Assembly (NCBI GenBank): GCA_027066455.1
Contig: JAMONT010000035.1
Span: 1 to 42,527, forward strand
Origin: Candidatus Altimarinota bacterium
GTDB lineage: Bacteria; Patescibacteriota; Gracilibacteria; BD1-5; UBA6164
Reading direction: 5' to 3'
DNA: 42,527 nt
The first letter of the stretch is position 1. Each line of letters opens with the position of its first letter. The notes beneath the pieces are model-generated. The model saw only the letters and a list, made by a program, of their open reading frames with translations. It had not been told where the DNA came from and searched no databases. The translations under genes were made by a program, and so were the position numbers. Of the stretch, positions 1 to 39,928 are shown piece by piece.

Positions 1-43
1 CTTGGACTATATTCAAAAGTACAATTTAAACTTTCTTCTTTAT
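1..43. repeat. 43-bp exact direct repeat, copy 1
   Basis: Identical to 139-181. On the minus strand it encodes the start of the second Kazal-like unit. The spacing of 138 bp equals 46 codons, so the repeat is in frame with the protein repeat. Confidence 0.9.
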
Positions 44-410
44 TTTTACATTTTCACATATACAAAAATTTTGCTTTTACTGCAGATAATTCACATTTAT
101 TTCAATAAGTTTTTTTAACTCAAAATTTTTCTCAACACCTTGGACTATATTCAAAAGTACAATTTAAACTTTCTTCTTTATATTTTAAACATTTTGGAGT
201 ATCTTGTCTAAAACAAGCTCTTTCAGTACAAGCTAAAATTTTTCAATTTTCTACTGAACAATCATTACATCAATCATACCAAGAAACACAACTTTTTGGT
301 ATTTTTGGTGATAAAGCTCAAGGATTAGAAGAAGAACTAGAAGCTACAGAATTAGAACTAAACAAAGAAAATGCTATTAAAATTAATAACAATAAAAATA
401 TTTTTTTCAT
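1..410 (-). CDS. Secreted Cys-rich protein with pacifastin-like and tandem Kazal-like motifs (partial, 3' end outside window)
   Basis: About 136 codons are visible on the minus strand from ATG at 408-410; the gene runs off the window start. It begins with a signal peptide (MKKIFLLLLILIAFSLFSS, then a Ser-rich stretch). Next comes a Cys-rich segment, CVSWYDGCNDC followed by ENGKILACTERAC, which resembles the CNxC...G....CTxxxC pattern of pacifastin-type inhibitors. Then comes CTFEYSPRCG...TYGNKCELSA...MGKC, which fits the Kazal pattern C-x7-C...TYxNxC...C with one expected Cys missing. The start of a second Kazal unit (KEESLNCTFEYSP) lies at the window edge, 46 codons downstream. Several glycines are TGA. 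The family normally inhibits serine proteases outside the cell; that role is inferred here. Calling this strand rests on motif and codon quality, because the opposite strand is also partly open. Confidence 0.72.
139..181. repeat. 43-bp exact direct repeat, copy 2
   Basis: Identical to 1-43. It encodes the KEESLNCTFEYSP segment of the first Kazal-like unit. Perfect identity over 43 bp suggests recent internal duplication or gene conversion within the repeat protein. Confidence 0.9.
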
Positions 411-3370: not shown

Positions 3371-4588
3371 ATGAAAAATAAAAAAGCCTTTACCTTAGTA
3401 GAATTAATAGTAGTAATAACAATATTATCAATATTGGCAACAATTTGATTTATTTGATATTCTTCTTACTTAGGTTCATCAAGAGATACAAATAGAGTTT
3501 CTCAATTAAAAAATATAAGTCAATCTTTAGAAATTTATGGAACAAAAAAATCTTTACCACTTCCAGAAGATAGTGTAGAAATAAAAACATGAGCAAAAAT
3601 AATAGCTTATCAAGGTTATGTATGAAAAAATATAATAGAACAAATAAATTATAGTACAGAAGGTATAGATCCTCAAAGCTGAGATTATTTTTCATATTAT
3701 CTAACAAAAGATAAAAAATATTTTCAACTAATGGCTTTTTTAGAAGATTGAACAGAATTGCAAAATAAATCAGCATTTAATATTTCTAAAAGTTATGCAG
3801 ATTATACAGATAAATTTCCAACAGTTTATTGAAAAAAATTGTGAATATTAACAGATATAGATAATACTCCAATTCAAGAAATAGCTTCAATAAAAACAGC
3901 TTGATTTTTAAATATATCTAATGTTTGAACAACAGAATATATTGCTATATTTTCAGATAAATCAAAACTAACTTGAAGTTGAACAAGTTTGGCTGTAGTA
4001 AATCCAAAAGCAAGTTGTAAAAGACTTTATGAAGCAAAATGAAAAAGAGAAAACTGAGTTTATAAAATAGATCCAGAAGGGAATTGAACAGGTTTTGAAG
4101 TTTATTGTGATATGACTACTGATTGAGGAGGTTGGACACTTATAATGAGATGAAAGTCTTGAAATTATTCTTGATGGTATACTACTTGAAATTTAAATTT
4201 AGAAAATTCTTTATATATTTGAGATACATTTAAATTTTCAGATGATAAAATAAATTTAATAAAAACAAAAGCTTATAGAATTATAAAAAATAATGAAGCT
4301 AGTTATAATAAATTTTTTATAAAATCTTCTTGTATTTATAATCATAATTCTGCTGCTACTTGAGAGTGTGAAAACTCTTGGTTAGATCAAAATTTTAATA
4401 AATGAGAATGGATATGAATTCAGTGATCATCAGGTCATAATTGAATTTCACAACAAATTTCTAGTCCTAATGTATGACATATTATAACTTCTCGGGGTTC
4501 TACATATTGATGGTTGTTAACTTCAGAAAACTGAAGTTGATGGAAACATGGTTGAAGTTGATGAGATTTTAGTATGTGGGTAAAATAA
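3371..4588 (+). CDS. Type IV pilin-like protein with fibrinogen-like C-terminal domain
   Basis: A 405-residue secreted or pilus protein. The N-terminus KKAFTLVELIVVITILSI is a class III prepilin signal: cleavage after Ala6 (Gly is usual), Glu at mature +5, then the hydrophobic pilin helix. From about Cys216 it carries a fibrinogen-related domain start: SCKRLYEAK, then GVYKIDPEG, then VYCDMTTDGGGWTLI (Cys246). The C-terminus is Trp/Gly-rich and ends FSMWVK. Bacterial pilins with fibrinogen-like tips are expected to act in adhesion to glycans or host surfaces; that is inferred. It ends just before a strong hairpin terminator. The bulk of its many glycines are TGA. Confidence 0.88.
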
Positions 4589-5460: not shown

Positions 5461-6819
5461 TTATAATTTTTTGCTTACAAATTTCTCCATTAAACTAATT
5501 AATTCAAATTCTCACTTAATAGCCTTATACATATCATTTATTTTTGGTGTTCCTGAAGCTAAAATAACTTTTATTTTTAATAATTCAGAAATTTTTAAAG
5601 CAACTTCAACTCAAGAATATCTAGGATTTTTATCTGAATAATAACTATTATCATGCTCTTCATCAACAATAATTGTTCAAAGATTTTTATAAGGATAAAA
5701 AAGTGCACTTCTTGTTCACACAATTATTTTACTTTTTTGTGTATAAATATCAAGCCGGATTTTAGTTTTTTTTGCTTCAGAAATTGTAGAATTAATCAAA
5801 ACTATATTTTCAGGAAAAATTTTTTCTATTCTTTCAAATATTTGAGAATTAAGAATTATTTCAGGAACTAAAACTAAAGTTTGTTTATTTTCTTTTAGAT
5901 TTTTTTCAATAATTTTCATATAAATTTCAGTTTTTCAACTTCAAGTTATTCAATGAAAAAGAATTTTATCATTTTTAGAATTAATAATTTTTTCATAAGT
6001 TTCTTGTTGTTTTTGAGAAAGATGAATCCCCCTATCCCCCTTCGGGTACTTTCCCCCCACGGGAGAAAGGATTTTTTGAATTACTAATTTTAAGTCTTTT
6101 TCTAATTCTTGATTTTTTATTCTTATTATTCTTACTTTATATTGTTTTATAAATTCATCTCTTATTTTATCATATTCTTTTGTTTCCTCATGAATTTTTC
6201 AATCAAGTTCTATAACTAATTTTAATTCATCTGAATAAAAATCTGCTATATATCTTCAAAAAGGGTGTTGTCTTCTAAATTTTATTCAATTTAATTGATT
6301 TCTTCTTAAAATATTCCACATAAAATCTTCATATTTTGTAGGTTTTTTCCTAAAATCTCTTGCTAAATTAATTATATATTTTGGTGTTGATCTCAAAAAT
6401 GATGAATATTCCAAATTGTCCCAACTTTTGTCCCCTTTCTCCCTTGGGGGGAAAGGGTTAGGGATAGGGGGAGTTATTTTATCTTTCCTAATTTTTTCTT
6501 TTAGATTTTTTGGAAAAAATAAATTTAAACAATGATGAATAAGGGAAAAATATTTTTTTGCAATAAAATTAATTAATTTTATTTGATATGGAAAAAGTAA
6601 AGGAATTTCAAATTTTATTTCTATAATTGATTTTATTTTTTTTTCATCAAAATCTATTTTATCTAAAATTTCTAAAATAACAGCATCTTTTATTTGTTTT
6701 CAATAAGGAACAAGAATAATTTGACCAATTTTTATTTTTTCCTCCAAAAAATCAGGGACAAAATAAGTTATCCCTTCATCTGAAAAACTACTAGAAAATA
6801 AAACTGTTTTTATGTACAA
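5461..6819 (-). CDS. priA: Truncated PriA-like primosomal helicase with in-frame DUF559 endonuclease insertion
   Basis: One open frame of 452 codons. Residues 1-115 resemble the PriA N-terminal DNA-binding region (YFVPDFLEEKIKIGQIILVP). Residues about 116-264 are a foreign cassette holding a DUF559/Vsr-like nuclease domain (RRQHPFGRYIADF, then LVIELDGKIHEE). Residues 265-452 are the first helicase domain: LSQKQQETYEK, Walker A GITGSGKT at 290-297, DEEH at 387-390, and motif III-like SGTP. It stops just after motif III, so helicase motifs IV-VI and the zinc region of a normal PriA (about 700 residues) are absent. The start is TTG (6817-6819), because an in-frame TAA lies three codons upstream. 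It may be a decaying gene or a repurposed protein; replication restart activity is doubtful. Confidence 0.75.
6028..6070 (-). repeat. Terminal repeat of DUF559 cassette (3' side of priA frame)
   Basis: GC-rich palindromic repeat, inverted relative to 6432-6474. It carries an extra CCTTCGGGTA segment compared with its partner. Translated in the priA frame it reads SPVGGKYPKGDRGI. Confidence 0.8.
6432..6474 (+). repeat. Terminal repeat of DUF559 cassette (5' side of priA frame)
   Basis: Inverted partner of 6028-6070. Translated in the priA frame it reads TPPIPNPFPPREKG, the Pro-rich signature typical of these repeats. Confidence 0.8.
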
Positions 6820-6843: not shown

Positions 6844-7836
6844 TTATTTTATCCAACCTTCAACTAAATCTTTTACAACTTGATACATTTTTTTTGGTGA
6901 ATGTCTTACAAAATCATTTTCATTTAATAAATCTCTTTCAATTATTTTATATTTTTTTGCTTCAAAAATACTTAATTCTTTTACTTTTACTGGTTTTTTA
7001 TTTTCTTCATTTTTATACTTTTCTACCATTTCTTCACTAATATGTCCATTATTTACAACAATATAATCTAAAATATTTTCTCATAAATATTTTTCTAAAA
7101 CATCTATAAAATCAATAACTTCAAAATTATTTGTTTCTCAATGCTTAGTCATTATATTACAAAAATACATAAATTTTGTTCCATTTTTTTTAGCCTCTTT
7201 TACAGCTTCTCTAAATCAAGTTGTTAAAATATTTGGCATAATTGAAGTATATAAATCTCAAGGAGCAATAATTACTATATCAGAATTTATTATTGCATTT
7301 CTTGCATTTGGATTTAAAGGAACTTTTGGTTCTAAAGAAATTTCTTTTATTTTTAAATCTTCACTGTGTGTTGGACAATCAATTTCATTTTCTCAAATAG
7401 CTTTTTTACCATTTTCAAAAACAGCACAAAGTTCTGATTTTTCTCTTGTTACAGGGATAACTTTTCATTTTACTCTAAAAAGATGATTTATTTCTTCAAG
7501 CCCTTTTTCAAAATCTCAAGTAATATTTTCCATTGCAGTTATCAAAAGATTTCAAATAGTATGCCCTGAAACTGAACTTTCTTTTTCAAATCTATAGTTA
7601 AATAATTCTCTTAAAAGTAAACTTTCTTCACTTAAAGCTAAAATTCATCTTCTAATATCTCAAGGAGGCAAAACTCAAAATTCATCTCTCAAAACTCCTG
7701 TTGAACCTCAACTATCACTCATTGAAATAATTGCAGATAAGTTGAACCTCCCATCTTCCTTTAATCAAGTTAAAATATTATAACTACCTGTTCAACCTCA
7801 AATAGTTGTTATATTTATTTTTTTTTCTAAATTCAT
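6844..7836 (-). CDS. yvcK: YvcK/CofD-like protein (gluconeogenesis factor, UPF0052)
   Basis: A 330-residue Rossmann-like protein of the YvcK family. The family binds UDP-sugars and is linked to carbon metabolism and cell-envelope shape. The N-terminal nucleotide-binding loop is TTIGGGTGSYNI (residues 10-21), followed by ISMSDSGGSTGVLRDEFGVLPPGDIRRG, a near-consensus YvcK signature. PNPNAR-like LNPNARNAI and APGDLYTSIMPNIL follow. It is first in a probable minus-strand operon yvcK-priA-ymdB and is divergent from jag. Several key Gly are TGA. Confidence 0.92.
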
Positions 7837-14807: not shown

Positions 14808-14855
14808 CCCTCTCTCCTGAATCCTCTCTCCCTTTTAGGGAGAAAGGGGCTGCAA
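14808..14855 (+). repeat. Dispersed palindromic repeat, family A (intergenic)
   Basis: Starts CCCTCTCTCCTGAATCC, has a central CTCTCCCTTTTAGGGAGA hairpin and ends AAAGGGGCTGCA. It lies between the membrane protein gene and a strong hairpin. Confidence 0.85.
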
Positions 14856-14899
14856 AAAATAAGGAAGATGATTTTAAAAAAAATAAAAAATAATAAAAA

Positions 14900-22399: not shown

Positions 22400-23629
22400 A
22401 TGAGTTTAGAAAACAATTTAATTGCCTCTATTGATATATGAAGTTCAAAAATTAGAACGATTATATGACAATTTGGTGAAGAAAATAAAGAAAACTTCCA
22501 AGTTTTATGAATTTGAATAGTAGAATCTACTGCTATTAGAAAAGGAAATATTTTAGATATGGAAGAATTTAAAAACAATCTTGATAAATCTCTTGAAGAA
22601 GCAGAAAAAATTGCTTGAGAACAAGTTGCTTGAGCTACTATTTCTTTTAATTCTTCACATTTAGAAGTTTTTGAAAGTAAATGAGTTGTCTCTGTTTCTG
22701 GTGATGAAATAGAATATGATGATATTGACAGAGTTATGGATATGGCAAAAAACTGAGTAGACCTTTCTAATAAAGAAATTCTAAAGGTTATTCCAGATTA
22801 TTACACTGTAGATTTGGAACCTTGAATTAGAAGTCCTATTGGAATGTCTGCTAGAAAATTGGAATTAAAGGCAAATATTTTTGCTATGAATTCTAGTATG
22901 CTTAATAATATTAAAAAAGCAATTGGAGATGTTTGAATAGAAATTCATGATATTTATCCAAATTTAATTTCAGCTCCTGAATGAATTTTGTCTAAAAGAC
23001 AAAAAGAATTATGAGTTGTAACTATTGATATTTGAGCTTCTACTACAGGTATTACTGTTTATGAAGAGGGAAGTTTGAAATTTGCAAAAGTTATTCCAGT
23101 ATGATGAGAAAATGTTACTAATGATATTGCTCTTTGAACTAGAGTTTCTATTGATACAGCTGAAAAATTAAAATTGGAATTTGCAGAAGTTAATAGAAAT
23201 GAAGAAGAACTTATTTCTAAAGAAATTGATTTAAAAAAGATTTCTAATAATGAAGAATGAAAAGTTGAAACTGATTATTTATCGAAAATTGTAACAGCTA
23301 GATATGAAGAAATTTTTAATTTTATTAGAGAAGAATTAAGATATATTTGAAAAGATTGAATGCTTCCTGAATGAGCAGTTTTAGTTTGATGAGGTTCAAA
23401 AATGAAATGAACTGTTGATTTAGCTAAAGAAATTCTTAGATTACCAGTTGCAGTTTGAACTCCAATTGAAAAAGATTCTTTAACTAGTACTTCAATAAGT
23501 GACCCGATTTTTGCTTCTGTAATAGGAACTTTGATTTTAGCAAACAAATATACTAAAGAATCTTTTGGTTTTAAACTAAATTTTATAGATTCTATTATAA
23601 AAATGTTTAAAAAGATTATGCCTTTTTAA
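22400..23629 (+). CDS. ftsA: Cell-division protein FtsA
   Basis: A 409-residue actin-like ATPase that tethers FtsZ to the membrane. ASIDIGSSKIRTIIG (residues 9-23) is the phosphate-1 motif. A 1C domain with ISFNSSHLEVFESKG follows, then VVTIDIGASTTGITVY (phosphate 2) and AVLVGGGSKMKG (adenosine motif). The C-terminus KLNFIDSIIKMFKKIMPF fits an amphipathic membrane-binding helix. It is directly upstream of ftsZ, separated by one dispersed palindromic repeat. Confidence 0.95.
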
Positions 23630-23634
23630 AAAAG

Positions 23635-23682
23635 CCCTCTCTCCTGAATCTTCTCTCCCTTACAGGGAAGAAAGGGGCTACA
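23635..23682 (+). repeat. Dispersed palindromic repeat, family A (ftsA-ftsZ spacer)
   Basis: CCCTCTCTCCTGAATCTT, then the CTCTCCCTTACAGGGAAG hairpin and AAAGGGGCTACA. It lies inside the ftsA-ftsZ unit, so it is transcribed with both genes. Confidence 0.85.
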
Positions 23683-23723
23683 GGAAAAGTTTAAAAATTT
23701 AATTTAATAATAAAAAAATAATT

Positions 23724-32227: not shown

Positions 32228-32276
32228 CCCTCTCTCTTGAATTTTCTCTCCCTTGCTGGGAGAAAGAGGCTACAAA
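32228..32276 (+). repeat. Dispersed palindromic repeat, family A (after dnaK)
   Basis: CCCTCTCTCTTGAATTTT, then the CTCTCCCTTGCTGGGAGA hairpin and AAAGAGGCTACAAA. It starts 9 bp after the dnaK stop and could also act as a transcript 3' end. Confidence 0.85.
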
Positions 32277-32328
32277 GTAGAAAACTAGTTAATTTTTTAG
32301 CTAATTTTTTTATTTTTCTAGAGAAGAA

Positions 32329-35470: not shown

Positions 35471-37414
35471 ATGACAAAAAAACACAATTTTGAAGCAGAA
35501 ACTGGTAGAATATTAGAACTTTTGACACATTCTATTTATTCTAATAAAGAAATTTTTTTAAGAGAAGTTGTTTCTAATAGTTCTGATGCTATTGATAAAG
35601 CTAGAATCAAATCTTTAACTGATACAAATTTTTTAAAAGCTTGAGAAAAATTTGAAATAAAAATAAATGTAAATGAAAAAAATAATTCTATTATTATAGA
35701 AGATAATGGGATTTGAATGGATAAAGAAAGTTTACAAAAAAATCTTTGAACTATTGCAAAATCTGGAACAAAAGAATTCGTAGAAAAATTAAAAAAAGCA
35801 AAAGAAGGCTCTGAACATAATCTTATTTGACAATTTTGAGTTGGATTTTATTCAGCTTTTATGGTAGCTGATAAAGTAGAAGTTGATAGTAAAACTAATG
35901 AAAGTGAAGCAAATAAATGGATTTCTGACTGAAAAACTGGTTATGAACTTGTTTCAGGAGAAAAAAAAGAAAGATGAACAAGAGTAGAAATTTTTTTAAA
36001 TGAAGCAAATAAAGAACTTTTAAGTGAATGGAAAATAAAAGAATTAGTAAAAAAATATTCTAATTATGCTCCAACTCCAATTATGCTAGAAGTTGAAGAA
36101 AAAGAAGAAAAGGATTGAAAAGAAGTAATTAAAGGAAAAAAATGGGAACAAATAAATGAATCTAAAGCTATTTGGAAAAAAAATAAATCTGAAATAAAAC
36201 CAGAAGAATTAGAAGAATTTTATAAATCTATAAGTATGGATTTTAATAAATATTTGACTTATTCACACATAAATATTGAATGAATGGTAAGTTATAAATC
36301 TTTGCTTTTTGTTCCAATGCAAAAAAATATGTTCAATGATTTGAGTGATCCAAACAAAGAATATTGACCAAAACTTTATATTCAAAATGTTTTGATTTTG
36401 GAAAATGCAAAAGAATTACTTCCTGTTTGGTTGAGATTTGTTTCTTGAGTTGTTGAAACTTCTGATTTACCTTTGAATATTTCAAGAGAAATGTTGCAAA
36501 ATAATTCTTCACTTGAAAAAATAAAAAAAGGTTTGGTTAAAAAAGTTTTAGCTGAACTAAAAAAATCTATGAAAAATGATGAAAAAAACTATGATATTTT
36601 CTTAGAAAATTATGCAAAACTTTTGAAAGAATGAGTTTATTATGAAACTTGAGAACAAAAAGAAGAAATTGCTTCAATTTTGAAATTTAAAAATTTAGAA
36701 TGAAAAAATATTAGTTTAGATGAATATTTAGAAAATTCAATTACCCTCTCTCCTGAATCCTCTCTCCCTGATGGGGAGAAAGGGGCTACAGAAGAAAAAA
36801 TAATTTATTATGTTGTTTGAAAATCTGAATCAGAAGTTTTAGCAAGTCCATATTTGTCTCAATTTAGAGAAAATAATGTTGATGTTTTACTTTTAACTGA
36901 CCCAATTGATTCATTTTTAGTTCAAAATTTTAATGAATACAAAAAAGCAAAATTAAAATCTATAACTTCAAGTGATATAAAATTAAAACAAGATTCTAAA
37001 GAAGAAAAAGAAAAAAAAGAAGAAGTAAAAAAAGATTTTAAAGATTTTTTAGAACTTACAAAAAATACTATTTCAGCTGATAAAATAGAAAAAGTTGAAT
37101 TAAATGAAAATCTTTGAGAAGCTATTTGAGCTTTGAAAACTCCAGAATGATGAGTAAATCCTGAAATGGAAAAAATGATGAAAACTATGGGGCAACCAGT
37201 TCCTGAACAAAAAAGAATTTTAGAATTAAATCCAAATACTGGACTTGTAAAATCTATGAAAGCTGAATTTGAAAAAGATTTGAAATCTGAAAAATTATCT
37301 GATATGATAAAATATGCTTATAATCAAGCCATTTTACTGGAATGAGGAGAATTAGAAAATATAGCAGATTTTGTAGCTCTAACTAATAAATTTGCAGGAA
37401 AATATTTAAAATAA
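35471..37414 (+). CDS. htpG: Chaperone HtpG (Hsp90)
   Basis: A 647-residue bacterial Hsp90. The GHKL ATPase motifs are present: [38 protein letters not shown], and [20 protein letters not shown]. The middle domain shows [11 protein letters not shown] and [15 protein letters not shown] dispersed repeat is inserted in frame at 36744-36790 (residues about 425-440, read [15 protein letters not shown]) directly before IIYYVVGKSES, in the middle/C-terminal boundary where other HtpG proteins have a short hairpin. Length otherwise fits the family (about 620-630). Confidence 0.96.
36744..36790 (+). repeat. Dispersed palindromic repeat, family A, in frame inside htpG
   Basis: CCCTCTCTCCTGAATCCT, then CTCTCCCTGATGGGGAGA and AAGGGGCTACA, the complete family A consensus. 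It adds about 16 codons without a frameshift. Confidence 0.9.
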
Positions 37415-37415
37415 T

Positions 37416-37463
37416 CCCTCTCTCTTGAATTCTCTCTCCCTTTTTAGGGAGAAAGAGGTTACA
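37416..37463 (+). repeat. Dispersed palindromic repeat, family A (htpG-sbcC spacer)
   Basis: CCCTCTCTCTTGAATTCT, then CTCTCCCTTTTTAGGGAGA and AAGAGGTTACA. It starts 2 bp after the htpG stop. Confidence 0.85.
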
Positions 37464-37495
37464 GTACACTACTAATTAAAAATTTTAGACACAAT

Positions 37496-39928
37496 ATGCA
37501 ATTAACATCAATAAAATTTTTAAACTTTAGAAGGTTTAGACAAGAAGAAATAAATTTAAAATCAGGTTTCACAATTATTTTTGGTAAAAATTGAAGCTGA
37601 AAATCAAGTATAATTGATGGAATTTGATTTTGTCTTTTTGGTGCCTGAAATAAGGACTTTTCTAGAGGAGTCACGCTAGATTTTAAAAGTTATTTTTTAA
37701 ATGATAGAAAACCTTCAAAAATAGAGTTAAATTTTGTTTTTTCTTGAGACCAATATAGAGTTGTTAGAATTATTGATAAAGGAATAAAAAAATTTGAAAA
37801 TGATTTTATTTTAGAAAGAGAAGATTTACTTTTTTGACCAAAATCTTTAAAAATTGTTTGATGAACTGAAATAACTAATTTTTTAATAAAACTTTTTTGA
37901 GTATCAAGAGAAATTTTTTTAAAATCAGTTTTTACAAAACAAAAAGATTTATCAGTTTTTTCTTGAGATAAATCAGCTAGAAAAAGTCTTATAAATTCTA
38001 TTTTATGAATTGATAAATTAGAAAAAATTATAAGAGATTTTTCAAAGTGTGAATATTCTAAAAAAACTGAACTTAGAATAATAAAATCTGAATTAGAAAA
38101 TTTTGATTTAGAAAAAATAAAAAAAGAATTAATAGAATTTTCTAAGCAAAAAACTGAATTAGAAAAGCAAGAAAAGGAATTTAAAAAACAATTAGAAGAA
38201 AAGAAAAAAGAATTTTTTAAGCAAGAAAAAGAATTTAAAATTCAGGAAAAAATAAAAGAAAATTTTGAAAATAATTTTAATTTATTTGAAAAAATAAAAA
38301 TTAGACAAGAAAATTTGAAAAAAAATATAGAAAATATAAAAGAAGAATTAAAAAATTTGGAAGAAAAAAAACAAATTTTGGAAGAAAAAAAATATATTTT
38401 TGAAACAGAAAAAATTTTGAAAGAAAAAATAGATATTTTGAAAAAAGAAGAAATTTTTTTTAAACAAAAACAAATATTAGAAAAAGAAAAAATTGAATTA
38501 GAAAAGAAAATAAGAGAAATTTTTTTAGAAATTAAATCCCTCTCTCCTGCACTTGACAGCATGACCCACAAGGGGCCGAAATCCTTTTTACCTATTAATG
38601 AAAAAGGGGCTACAAAAGAAAATATAGAAAAAAATCTAGAAGAAAAAAATAAAAATTTAAAAGAAATATTACAAAAAAAATTTGGACTTGAAAAAGAATT
38701 AGAAATAATTTTGGAAGAATGAAAACAAATAAAAAATGAACTTGAAGAAATAAAAAAATTGGCAAGCAGTGCAAAATGTCCAACTTGTAAAAGGGAGTTA
38801 TGAGATTATGCACCAAATTTATTAAAAATAATTAATGAAAAAAGAGAAGAAAAAATAGTTATTTATAATGAAAAAAAGAAAAAAATAAAAGAATTAGAAA
38901 TAGAAGAAAAAAATTTGTGAGAAAAAATTTTGGAACTTGAAAAAATAAAAAATGATTTGGAAGAAGCAGAAAAAAAATTAATTAGATTACAAGATTTAGA
39001 AAAAAATAAAAAAGAAAATATTGATTTAATTAATAAAAAATTATTAGAATTAAAAAATATTAATTTTGATGAAAAAATTTTAAATAAATTAATTTTAGAT
39101 TTTGAAAAGCTGAATTTAGAAACAAAAAAATTGAGAATTTTAGAATGAGAAATTAAAAAAATTGATATTTTAAAAAAAGATTTAAAAGATTTTTCAAATG
39201 ATTTAGAACAAAAAAAATTAGAAAAAAAAGATTTGGAAAAAAATTTAGAAGAAATTAATTTTGATAAGCAAAATTTTTTAAAATTAAAACTAAAACAAGA
39301 AAATTTTAATAAAATAATTTTGGAAAAAACAGAAAAATTATGATTTTTTAAAGATGAAATAAATGTTTTAGATAAACAAATTTTTATTAAAAATACTGAA
39401 AAAGAAAATAATAAACAAAAAGAAAAAAGGAAAAATAATATTTTAAAAGATTTAGATTTACTCAATTTAAAACAAAGAATTTTTTCTGATTATTCTATTT
39501 ATTTACTTAATTTTTTAAAACCAAAAATAGAATTTTTAGCATCAAATTATTTTGCAACAGCAACAAATAATAAATATACTTCGATTAGTTTGGATACAGA
39601 ATACAGAATAAAAATCGACGAAAAATCTCTAGATTTATATTCTTGAGGTGAACAAGATTTGGCTAATTTATGTCTTAGAATAGCTCTTGGTCAAAATCTA
39701 AGTATTACAAATACTTGAAATTTAATCAACTTTTTAATTTTAGATGAAGTTTTATGAAGTCAAGACAAAGTAAGACAAGAAAATATTTTACTTGCTTTAA
39801 AAAAATTGGAAACAAAATTTAGTCAAATTATTTTGATAAGCCATATTGATGATTTAAAAGATATTTGAGACAATTTAATTGAAGTAAAAAGTTTGGATAA
39901 TTTTGAAAGTGAAATTGTTAGTGTTTAG
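37496..39928 (+). CDS. sbcC: SbcC/Rad50-like DNA repair ATPase with in-frame repeat
   Basis: An 810-residue SMC-like ATPase that with SbcD processes DNA ends and hairpins. Walker A is IIFGKNGSGKSSI (30-37). Long coiled coils flank a zinc hook CPTCKREL (Cys428, Cys431). The signature is YSGGEQDLANLCLRIAL and Walker B is NFLILDEVLGSQD. A palindromic repeat variant lies in frame at 38538-38614 (residues about 348-373), within the ascending coiled coil before the hook, and adds Pro/Gly residues that should break the coil locally. sbcD is not in the window. Length is shorter than the usual 1000. Confidence 0.9.
38538..38614 (+). repeat. Dispersed repeat variant, in frame inside sbcC
   Basis: Begins CCCTCTCTCCTGCACTTGAC and ends GAAAAAGGGGCTACA like family A. 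The centre is replaced by an unusual GC-rich segment (CAGCATGACCCACAAGGGGC) and a different spacer. Total about 77 bp. Confidence 0.75.

Follow-up and report, generated by a model that had tools for sequence, protein, structure and literature searches.

A reading frame at the very end of a contig from Candidatus Altimarinota bacterium raises the question of whether a bacterium that reads UGA as glycine exports a chain of protease inhibitor domains and, if so, which proteases such domains might face. The window, meaning the whole stretch of DNA that was analysed, is 42,527 nucleotides long and represents the entire contig C35 of the source genome (G000; 1.49 Mb in 102 contigs). The sequence-only reading had placed the gene on the minus strand and translated TGA as glycine, and both choices hold. 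Under table 25, the frame is open from its ATG to the contig end with seven in-frame TGA codons that close it under the standard code, and homologues confirm that the minus strand, rather than the opposite one, is coding. The DnaK gene on the same contig (30294–32216) is a single frame with 29 TGA codons and its product scores 729 bits against solved DnaK. The window frame aligned over 80 codons with L009 (genome G008), which has the most similar architecture found: 32 codons are identical, 11 differ synonymously and 37 non-synonymously. Six TGA codons of the window are matched there by TGA (three times), GGT, GCT and TCA (once each). Among 28 pacifastin-like units, the glycine of a DGC motif is encoded by TGA in six and by GGN in 22, the search pattern having demanded a glycine and left its codon free. 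GC content is 21% for the contig and 24% for the AT-rich inhibitor region, and the neighbors of the frame are ordinary bacterial genes. Read with UGA as glycine, the frame is confirmed to be a real coding sequence.

In order, the translation presents a signal peptide, CVSWYDGCNDCSVENGKILACTERACFRQDTPKC (Cys41–Cys74), CTFEYSPRCGEKFGVKKTYGNKCELSAVKAKFLYMGKC (Cys84–Cys121) and the start of a further unit, KNKEESLNCTFEYSP. Residues 4–18 of the signal peptide have a mean Kyte-Doolittle value of 2.99, a lipobox cysteine is absent, and cleavage would be expected after residue 24. The signal peptide and the motifs CNDC...GKILACTERAC and CTFEYSPRCG...TYGNKC, on which the secreted inhibitor had first been proposed, are all present. 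The two Kazal-like units that had been counted, CTFEYSPRCG and TYGNKCELSA, proved to be the front and the back of one domain, with a second domain that only begins before the contig ends. The features are collected in Table 1.

Table 1. Features of the inhibitor gene and associated sequences; positions are those of the window unless another contig or locus is named.
Feature	Position	Strand	Basis or remark
Inhibitor coding sequence, 5' part, table 25	3..410	-	ATG 410..408; runs off contig end
Sec-type signal peptide, residues 1-24	339..410	-	Basic start, hydrophobic core, small residues at presumed cut
Pacifastin-like domain, Cys41-Cys74	189..290	-	Without pacifastin C4; extra Cys 8 residues after C6
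Predicted reactive bond, P1 Glu63 - P1' Arg64	219..224	-	Alignment to solved pacifastins
Kazal domain 1, Cys84-Cys121, four-cysteine, C1-C5 absent, non-classical	48..161	-	Pfam, PDB, HMM
Predicted Kazal P1, Phe86 (CT-F-EY)	153..155	-	Alignment with 2sgf_I
Kazal domain 2 start (CTFEYSP), cut by contig end	3..23	-	Translation, direct repeat
47-base direct repeat copy	1..47	.	Other copy 139-185; 98% identical; assembly broke there
Continuation of inhibitor gene	C62 (L039) 8231 down to 7629	-	Shared 20-base end
Helical C-terminal domain	L039:7632-7859, L040:2361-2570, L041:536-760, L042:2530-2769		Without firm Pfam name
uppS-like gene	660		

The two copies of the 47-base repeat lie 138 bases apart. 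The genome has four copies of the 20 bases that close the minus strand, ACTTTTGAATATAGTCCAAG: one at the end of C35, one at the end of C62 and one inside each of these contigs. Contig C62 (8,231 bases) opens in frame with TFEYSPRCG and continues with the remainder of one Kazal unit, another near-identical one, CPIYNTLPAKKDCYYKYIENKNGCKIQKLIC, a helical tail and a stop at 7629. The inhibitor gene very probably continues from C35 onto C62, and the remaining repeats of the set are found there. In the simplest join, three Kazal units are present and the product is 330 residues long (136 − 6 + 200), values that rest on the 20-base overlap because the two parts of the gene lie on separate contigs; more Kazal units may be present since collapsed repeats would be invisible here. 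The whole joined protein of about 330 residues would consist of the pacifastin-like domain, three Kazal domains, a further cysteine-rich motif and the helical tail.

Three observations were made elsewhere in the window. At 3371–4588 on the plus strand, a type IV pilin-like N-terminus (N_methyl) is joined to the first part of a fibrinogen C-terminal domain (Fibrinogen_C, 43.5 bits). A DUF559 domain (103 bits) lies in frame inside a PriA-like helicase at 5461–6819 on the minus strand, between the 3' DNA-binding domain and the DEAD domain. A dispersed repeat of 60–90 bases with palindromic parts is found at 1358–1437, 14808–14887, 23628–23716, 32228–32300, 36739–36804 and 37408–37501, mostly directly behind genes and, at 36739–36804, in frame inside an HtpG-like gene. 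It resembles palindromic elements of the type that inserts into genes.

The Kazal assignment, at first made by eye, is borne out by significant domain matches. Kazal_1 (PF00050) scored a marginal 21.6 bits on the 136-residue frame (residues 74–114; cut-off 21), 21.3 bits on the isolated 38-residue core and 27.1 bits on the C62 part, and it matched 25 of 27 units from relatives at E 0.01 or better. A Kazal HMM derived from other genomes only gave the window protein 44.0 bits. With the same HMM, and 5,000 shuffles made of each kind, the best residue shuffle reached 11.9 bits (4,927 scored) and the best shuffle with fixed cysteines 14.5 bits (4,939 scored); the runner-up among the 341 window frames of at least 40 residues scored 2.3. 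A sequence search of the PDB gave 38 distinct sequences with E values of 1 or less. Ovomucoids and other Kazal inhibitors make up most of them, and saxiphilin is among the weakest. A profile of 27 Kazal units matched silk protease inhibitor 2 (2m5x/4hgu) at all 35 positions (E 2.5e-15), and agrin and follistatin were also matched.

The window unit contains C2-x7-C3-G (CTFEYSPRCG), TYGNKC and MGKC. The C1-C5 disulfide of the classical six-cysteine Kazal domain is absent, there being no cysteine at the C5 position. Cys74 is the only cysteine at a C1-like distance, and the alignment assigns it to the pacifastin-like unit; the repeated Kazal units also lack C1. From its cysteine pattern, the unit is accepted only as a non-classical, four-cysteine form. 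Among 133 distinct Kazal cores from 94 of 134 loci, selected with a pattern that fixed the cysteines and TY.N.C and left the loop free, 93 have neither C1 nor C5, 24 have both, 15 have C1 only and one has C5 only (Fisher p 3e-15 for co-occurrence, relatedness ignored).

Since the units are related and unevenly sampled, the statistics of the reactive loop are descriptions and not tests: P2 is Thr in 93 of the 133 cores, P1' is Glu in 68, P2' is Tyr in 110 and P4' is Pro in 131. The P1 position, which we take to be Phe86 in the window, is occupied by 15 kinds of residue (Met 48, Lys 11, Asp 10, Ala 10, Leu 10, Thr 9, Glu 9 and others). The entropies in bits are 1.63 for P2, 3.20 for P1, 2.41 for P1', 1.19 for P2', 3.30 for P3' and 0.13 for P4'; because P3' is as variable as P1, part of the P1 variability may be plain surface exposure. 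Canonical inhibitors such as ovomucoids present variable contact positions on a conserved frame.

The head that precedes the Kazal domains had been read as a pacifastin. Its likeness to pacifastins stands, and plain membership is not supported. Pacifastins have a three-stranded fold in which C1 is paired with C4, C2 with C6 and C3 with C5. Pacifastin_I (PF05375; cut-off 27.9) scored 21.6 bits in the 136-residue frame (residues 43–71) and 28.3 bits on the isolated 34-residue domain, which is marginal because the same residues fall under or over the cut-off by context. The family matched 28/28 bacterial units when these were scanned alone, and a PDB profile search with the 28 units returned only pacifastins among its 16 matches up to E 10, the best being 1kio (E 9.9e-7) and PMP-C in 1gl1 being included. 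The pattern behind the 28 units had barred a cysteine between C3 and C5 and demanded a late one, and was thus unable to test C4. A second set of 37 units, from 28 of 175 non-viral loci, was collected with no condition on C4, C1 or the late cysteine. C1 and a late cysteine after C6 occur in 37/37 and a cysteine between C3 and C5 in 0/37, so that the six-cysteine scaffold C1–C6 with CNxCxC is not seen in any of them; a bias against forms with C4 is possible since most loci were fetched because they resembled the window protein, Kazal_1 or a profile without C4. As C4 is missing and a late cysteine is found instead, the domain is termed pacifastin-like and is not filed as a pacifastin. The C1-C4 pair is impossible in the window unit since there is no C4. 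The reactive bond would be Glu63-Arg64, if the P1 register that we assume for pacifastins applies. A glutamate at P1 is unusual for a pacifastin. At the aligned residue, the 28 units have Glu (7), Met (5), Gln (4), Arg (4), Leu (4) or Lys (4). AlphaFold-type predictions were of low confidence and lent no support, both for the 91-residue pacifastin-like and Kazal piece as a single sequence (mean pLDDT 40.5) and for the pacifastin-like domain with a 10-row alignment (mean pLDDT 57.7).

A DNA-pattern scan of viral contigs identified pacifastin-like units that have C4 and one more upstream cysteine (CPRDCSSWYDGCNTCTCKDGFLGACTERFCFRKTEPKCLD in L149; also L150 and L152), and the L149 stretch scores 53.3 bits with Pacifastin_I. 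These C4-bearing units lie on IMG/VR contigs at L149:8479-8955, L150:1936-2055 and L152:1800-1919. Three such units occur within one 1664-residue cysteine-rich frame of a virus-like contig, and the two best share 57% of their aligned residues with the window unit. From the paired presence of C4 and the upstream cysteine, the comparison suggests that the bacterial form is without one disulfide, that between the upstream cysteine and C4, and keeps another that would join Cys41 to the late Cys74. In two relatives, L017:1474-3186 and L048:877-3303, a pacifastin-like domain is fused to a beta-propeller (Beta_propel, PF09826; 274 and 391 bits, respectively); these frames have few or no in-frame TGA codons.

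The source genome contains three more Kazal genes, on C23 (L040), C83 (L041) and C52 (L042), and in an alignment all four of its Kazal genes end in a common helical domain. A profile of this tail matched 31 of the 48 genomes of the family (UBA6164) and six places in the source genome: besides the four Kazal genes, it picked out proteins on C90 and C44 that by eye are LRR-like. In other genomes, the tail comes after FN3-like domains (also named by eye) or Kazal heads. The tail thus seems to serve exported proteins as a general address or anchor. Cysteine-rich segments of other kinds were also encountered. At L022:1408-2400, a Kazal head is followed by four 31-residue repeats (CPVY..GCY..DENGC..PK.C) for which no Pfam family and no PDB relative was found; the motif is present once on C62. 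An antistasin identity for the CPIY...GC...NGC...C motif of C62 found no support: none of the PDB matches of a five-row profile, taken up to E 10, was an antistasin. A TIMP-like identity for the CSCM start of L034 was dropped, with no PDB match up to E 1 and no Pfam match.

Bacterial cases of Kazal and pacifastin domains, both best known from animals, had been described beforehand as scattered, which understates their distribution. Of 353 genomes of the class (Gracilibacteria), 93 have a Kazal_1 match, as do 17 of 379 genomes in an even sample of the phylum, one of the 17 being in the class; the pacifastin-like profile was found in 78/353 and 14/379, respectively (seven of the 14 in the class, the source genome included). 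The two samples overlap, and all of these tallies are taken as lower bounds because the genome-wide six-frame search at E 0.001 is stricter than the Pfam cut-off and counted TGA as a stop. Under these settings PF00050 found no match in the contigs of the source genome, though the window unit, scanned as protein, is over that cut-off; in 14 control genomes Kazal_1 was found 0 times. A search with the window protein gave matches in 51 of 99 genomes, which is not a Kazal count since some were through the signal peptide only (query 4–46 in G094). Neither a relative of the window protein nor one of the Kazal alignment was found in the viral contigs. The single match in the genome-contig collection, L038 (Poseidonibacter), was rejected as a relative: it concerned mainly the signal peptide, the cysteine motifs were absent, and the frame by eye is that of a substrate-binding-like protein.

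Several known systems may be compared. We take GmSPI-2-type Kazal inhibitors to fall in MEROPS family I1, and the pacifastins SGCI/SGPI and PMP-C in I19. The ovomucoid third domain (2sgf_I) shares the CTFEY reactive loop and TYGNKC with the window unit but has a C1-C5 disulfide, whereas the window unit has no C5. The solved pacifastins (1kgm, 1kio, 1gl1) share the CNxC...G...ACTxxAC core with the reactive bond in CTxx; they differ from the bacterial units in C4 and the late cysteine, and from the window in its P1 glutamate. The nearest likeness in cysteine pattern is to GmSPI-2 of the wax moth, with four cysteines, seven residues between C2 and C3, TYxNxC and a last cysteine after GxC. In contrast, the window unit is bacterial, tandem, located behind a pacifastin-like head, three residues longer before TYGNKC, and has Phe in place of Thr at P1. 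GmSPI-2 is described, in the part of the report available, as a non-classical Kazal inhibitor with four cysteines, two disulfides, seven residues between the loop cysteines and P1 at Thr7, highly active on subtilisin and proteinase K (PMC4169406). Pacifastin-like domains in CPR bacteria and myxobacteria were reported in 2026 (PMC13388995). As far as the text of that report was accessible, its CPR set was mostly found by structure, has the intact six-cysteine scaffold and comes from MAGs of 35.0–49.5% GC, whereas the window unit was found by sequence, lies on a 21% GC contig with a UGA-Gly code, lacks C4 and is fused to Kazal domains; in the accessible main text, "gracilibacter" occurs 0 times. 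Prokaryotic Kazal domains are also on record, e.g. from a sponge thaumarchaeon in the portion of that paper available (PMC6697440). Both domain families are therefore already known in bacteria. In the literature searched, no description was found of the Kazal and pacifastin-like combination in UGA-Gly bacteria, of the form without C4 or of the common tail; the literature covered was that on Kazal domains in the candidate phyla radiation, in Gracilibacteria and in Patescibacteria, and on protease inhibitors of Absconditabacteria.

Taken together, the homology and the reactive-site pattern favor the serine protease inhibitor reading advanced at the outset, and the protein is probably a secreted or surface-held, multi-headed canonical inhibitor. 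After Sec export, its disulfides would form outside the cell, yielding a chain of one pacifastin-like head, three GmSPI-2-like Kazal heads, the cysteine-rich motif and the helical C-terminal domain. Each head would present a rigid, exposed loop that binds the active site of a serine protease like a substrate and is hardly cleaved. The Kazal heads, with Phe at P1, would suit subtilisin- or chymotrypsin-like enzymes and the pacifastin-like head would offer Glu, so that several heads with different P1 residues could block serine proteases, with retention or release at the cell surface possibly mediated by the tail. Most simply, the role would be protection of a small, host-dependent cell against foreign serine proteases. 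Alpha-2-macroglobulin (A2M) domains, which have an unrelated fold and a trap mechanism, occur in 35 of the 48 genomes of the family and twice in the source genome. A foreign target fits since P1 is variable and since, in the part of the paper available, A2M domains of Vampirococcus lugosii have been proposed to be protective against host proteases (PMC8080830), a CPR-predator defense akin to the one considered here.

This protective role may be carried further, tentatively, to a family repertoire of diversifying exported inhibitors with a shared tail and swappable heads, in which P1 is in an arms race with the proteases of hosts, prey or grazers. The interchangeable heads could then be the Kazal domain, the pacifastin-like domain without C4, the further cysteine-rich repeat and, separately, A2M. 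It is equally conjectural that the helical tail delivers or holds these proteins at the cell surface and that P1 differs from species to species.

The target could instead be the organism's own enzymes. Two places in the source genome encode subtilases over the Pfam cut-off, on C56 (L051) and C12 (L052), and the heads may keep such exported subtilases inactive until prey or host material is met. The copy on C12 has a signal-like start, the motifs expected around the catalytic Asp, His and Ser can be made out in that on C56, and Phe at P1 with a GmSPI-2-like loop fits subtilisins. However, neither subtilase is encoded on C35 or C62 and neither was seen linked to an inhibitor gene, and 15 kinds of P1 in 133 cores are more than would be needed for one conserved self target. 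This explanation is the less likely one but a serious rival. The two subtilase genes are nearly identical, and that on C56 has a long acidic, repeat-rich C-terminal part.

It is less plausible still that the heads do not inhibit at all and serve as stable spacer or adhesion modules. Kazal-like domains are also found in non-inhibitory proteins such as agrin and follistatin, which is a point against the inhibitor reading, the common tail also ends the FN3-like and LRR proteins named by eye, and the pacifastin-like domain is joined to beta-propellers in L048 and L017. Against this, the conserved P2 Thr and P2' Tyr flank a variable P1, and the match to GmSPI-2, an active minimal inhibitor, is full-length. 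That the frame is an artefact, through chance or eukaryotic contamination, is barely credible even for an AT-rich region within a repeat at a contig end, given that none of about 9,900 scored shuffles came near the HMM score, that the in-frame TGA codons need the code used by the remainder of the contig, including DnaK, and that the neighbors are bacterial and same-order relatives carry the same domains.

Animals have supplied most of the work on secreted canonical inhibitors. Here, Kazal heads with variable reactive sites are found in about a quarter of the genomes of reduced, probably host-dependent bacteria. Whether such heads contribute to survival against digestion by partners or grazers is testable with small proteins. 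The pacifastin-like form without C4, together with the viral forms that have it, bears on the origin of the inhibitor fold.
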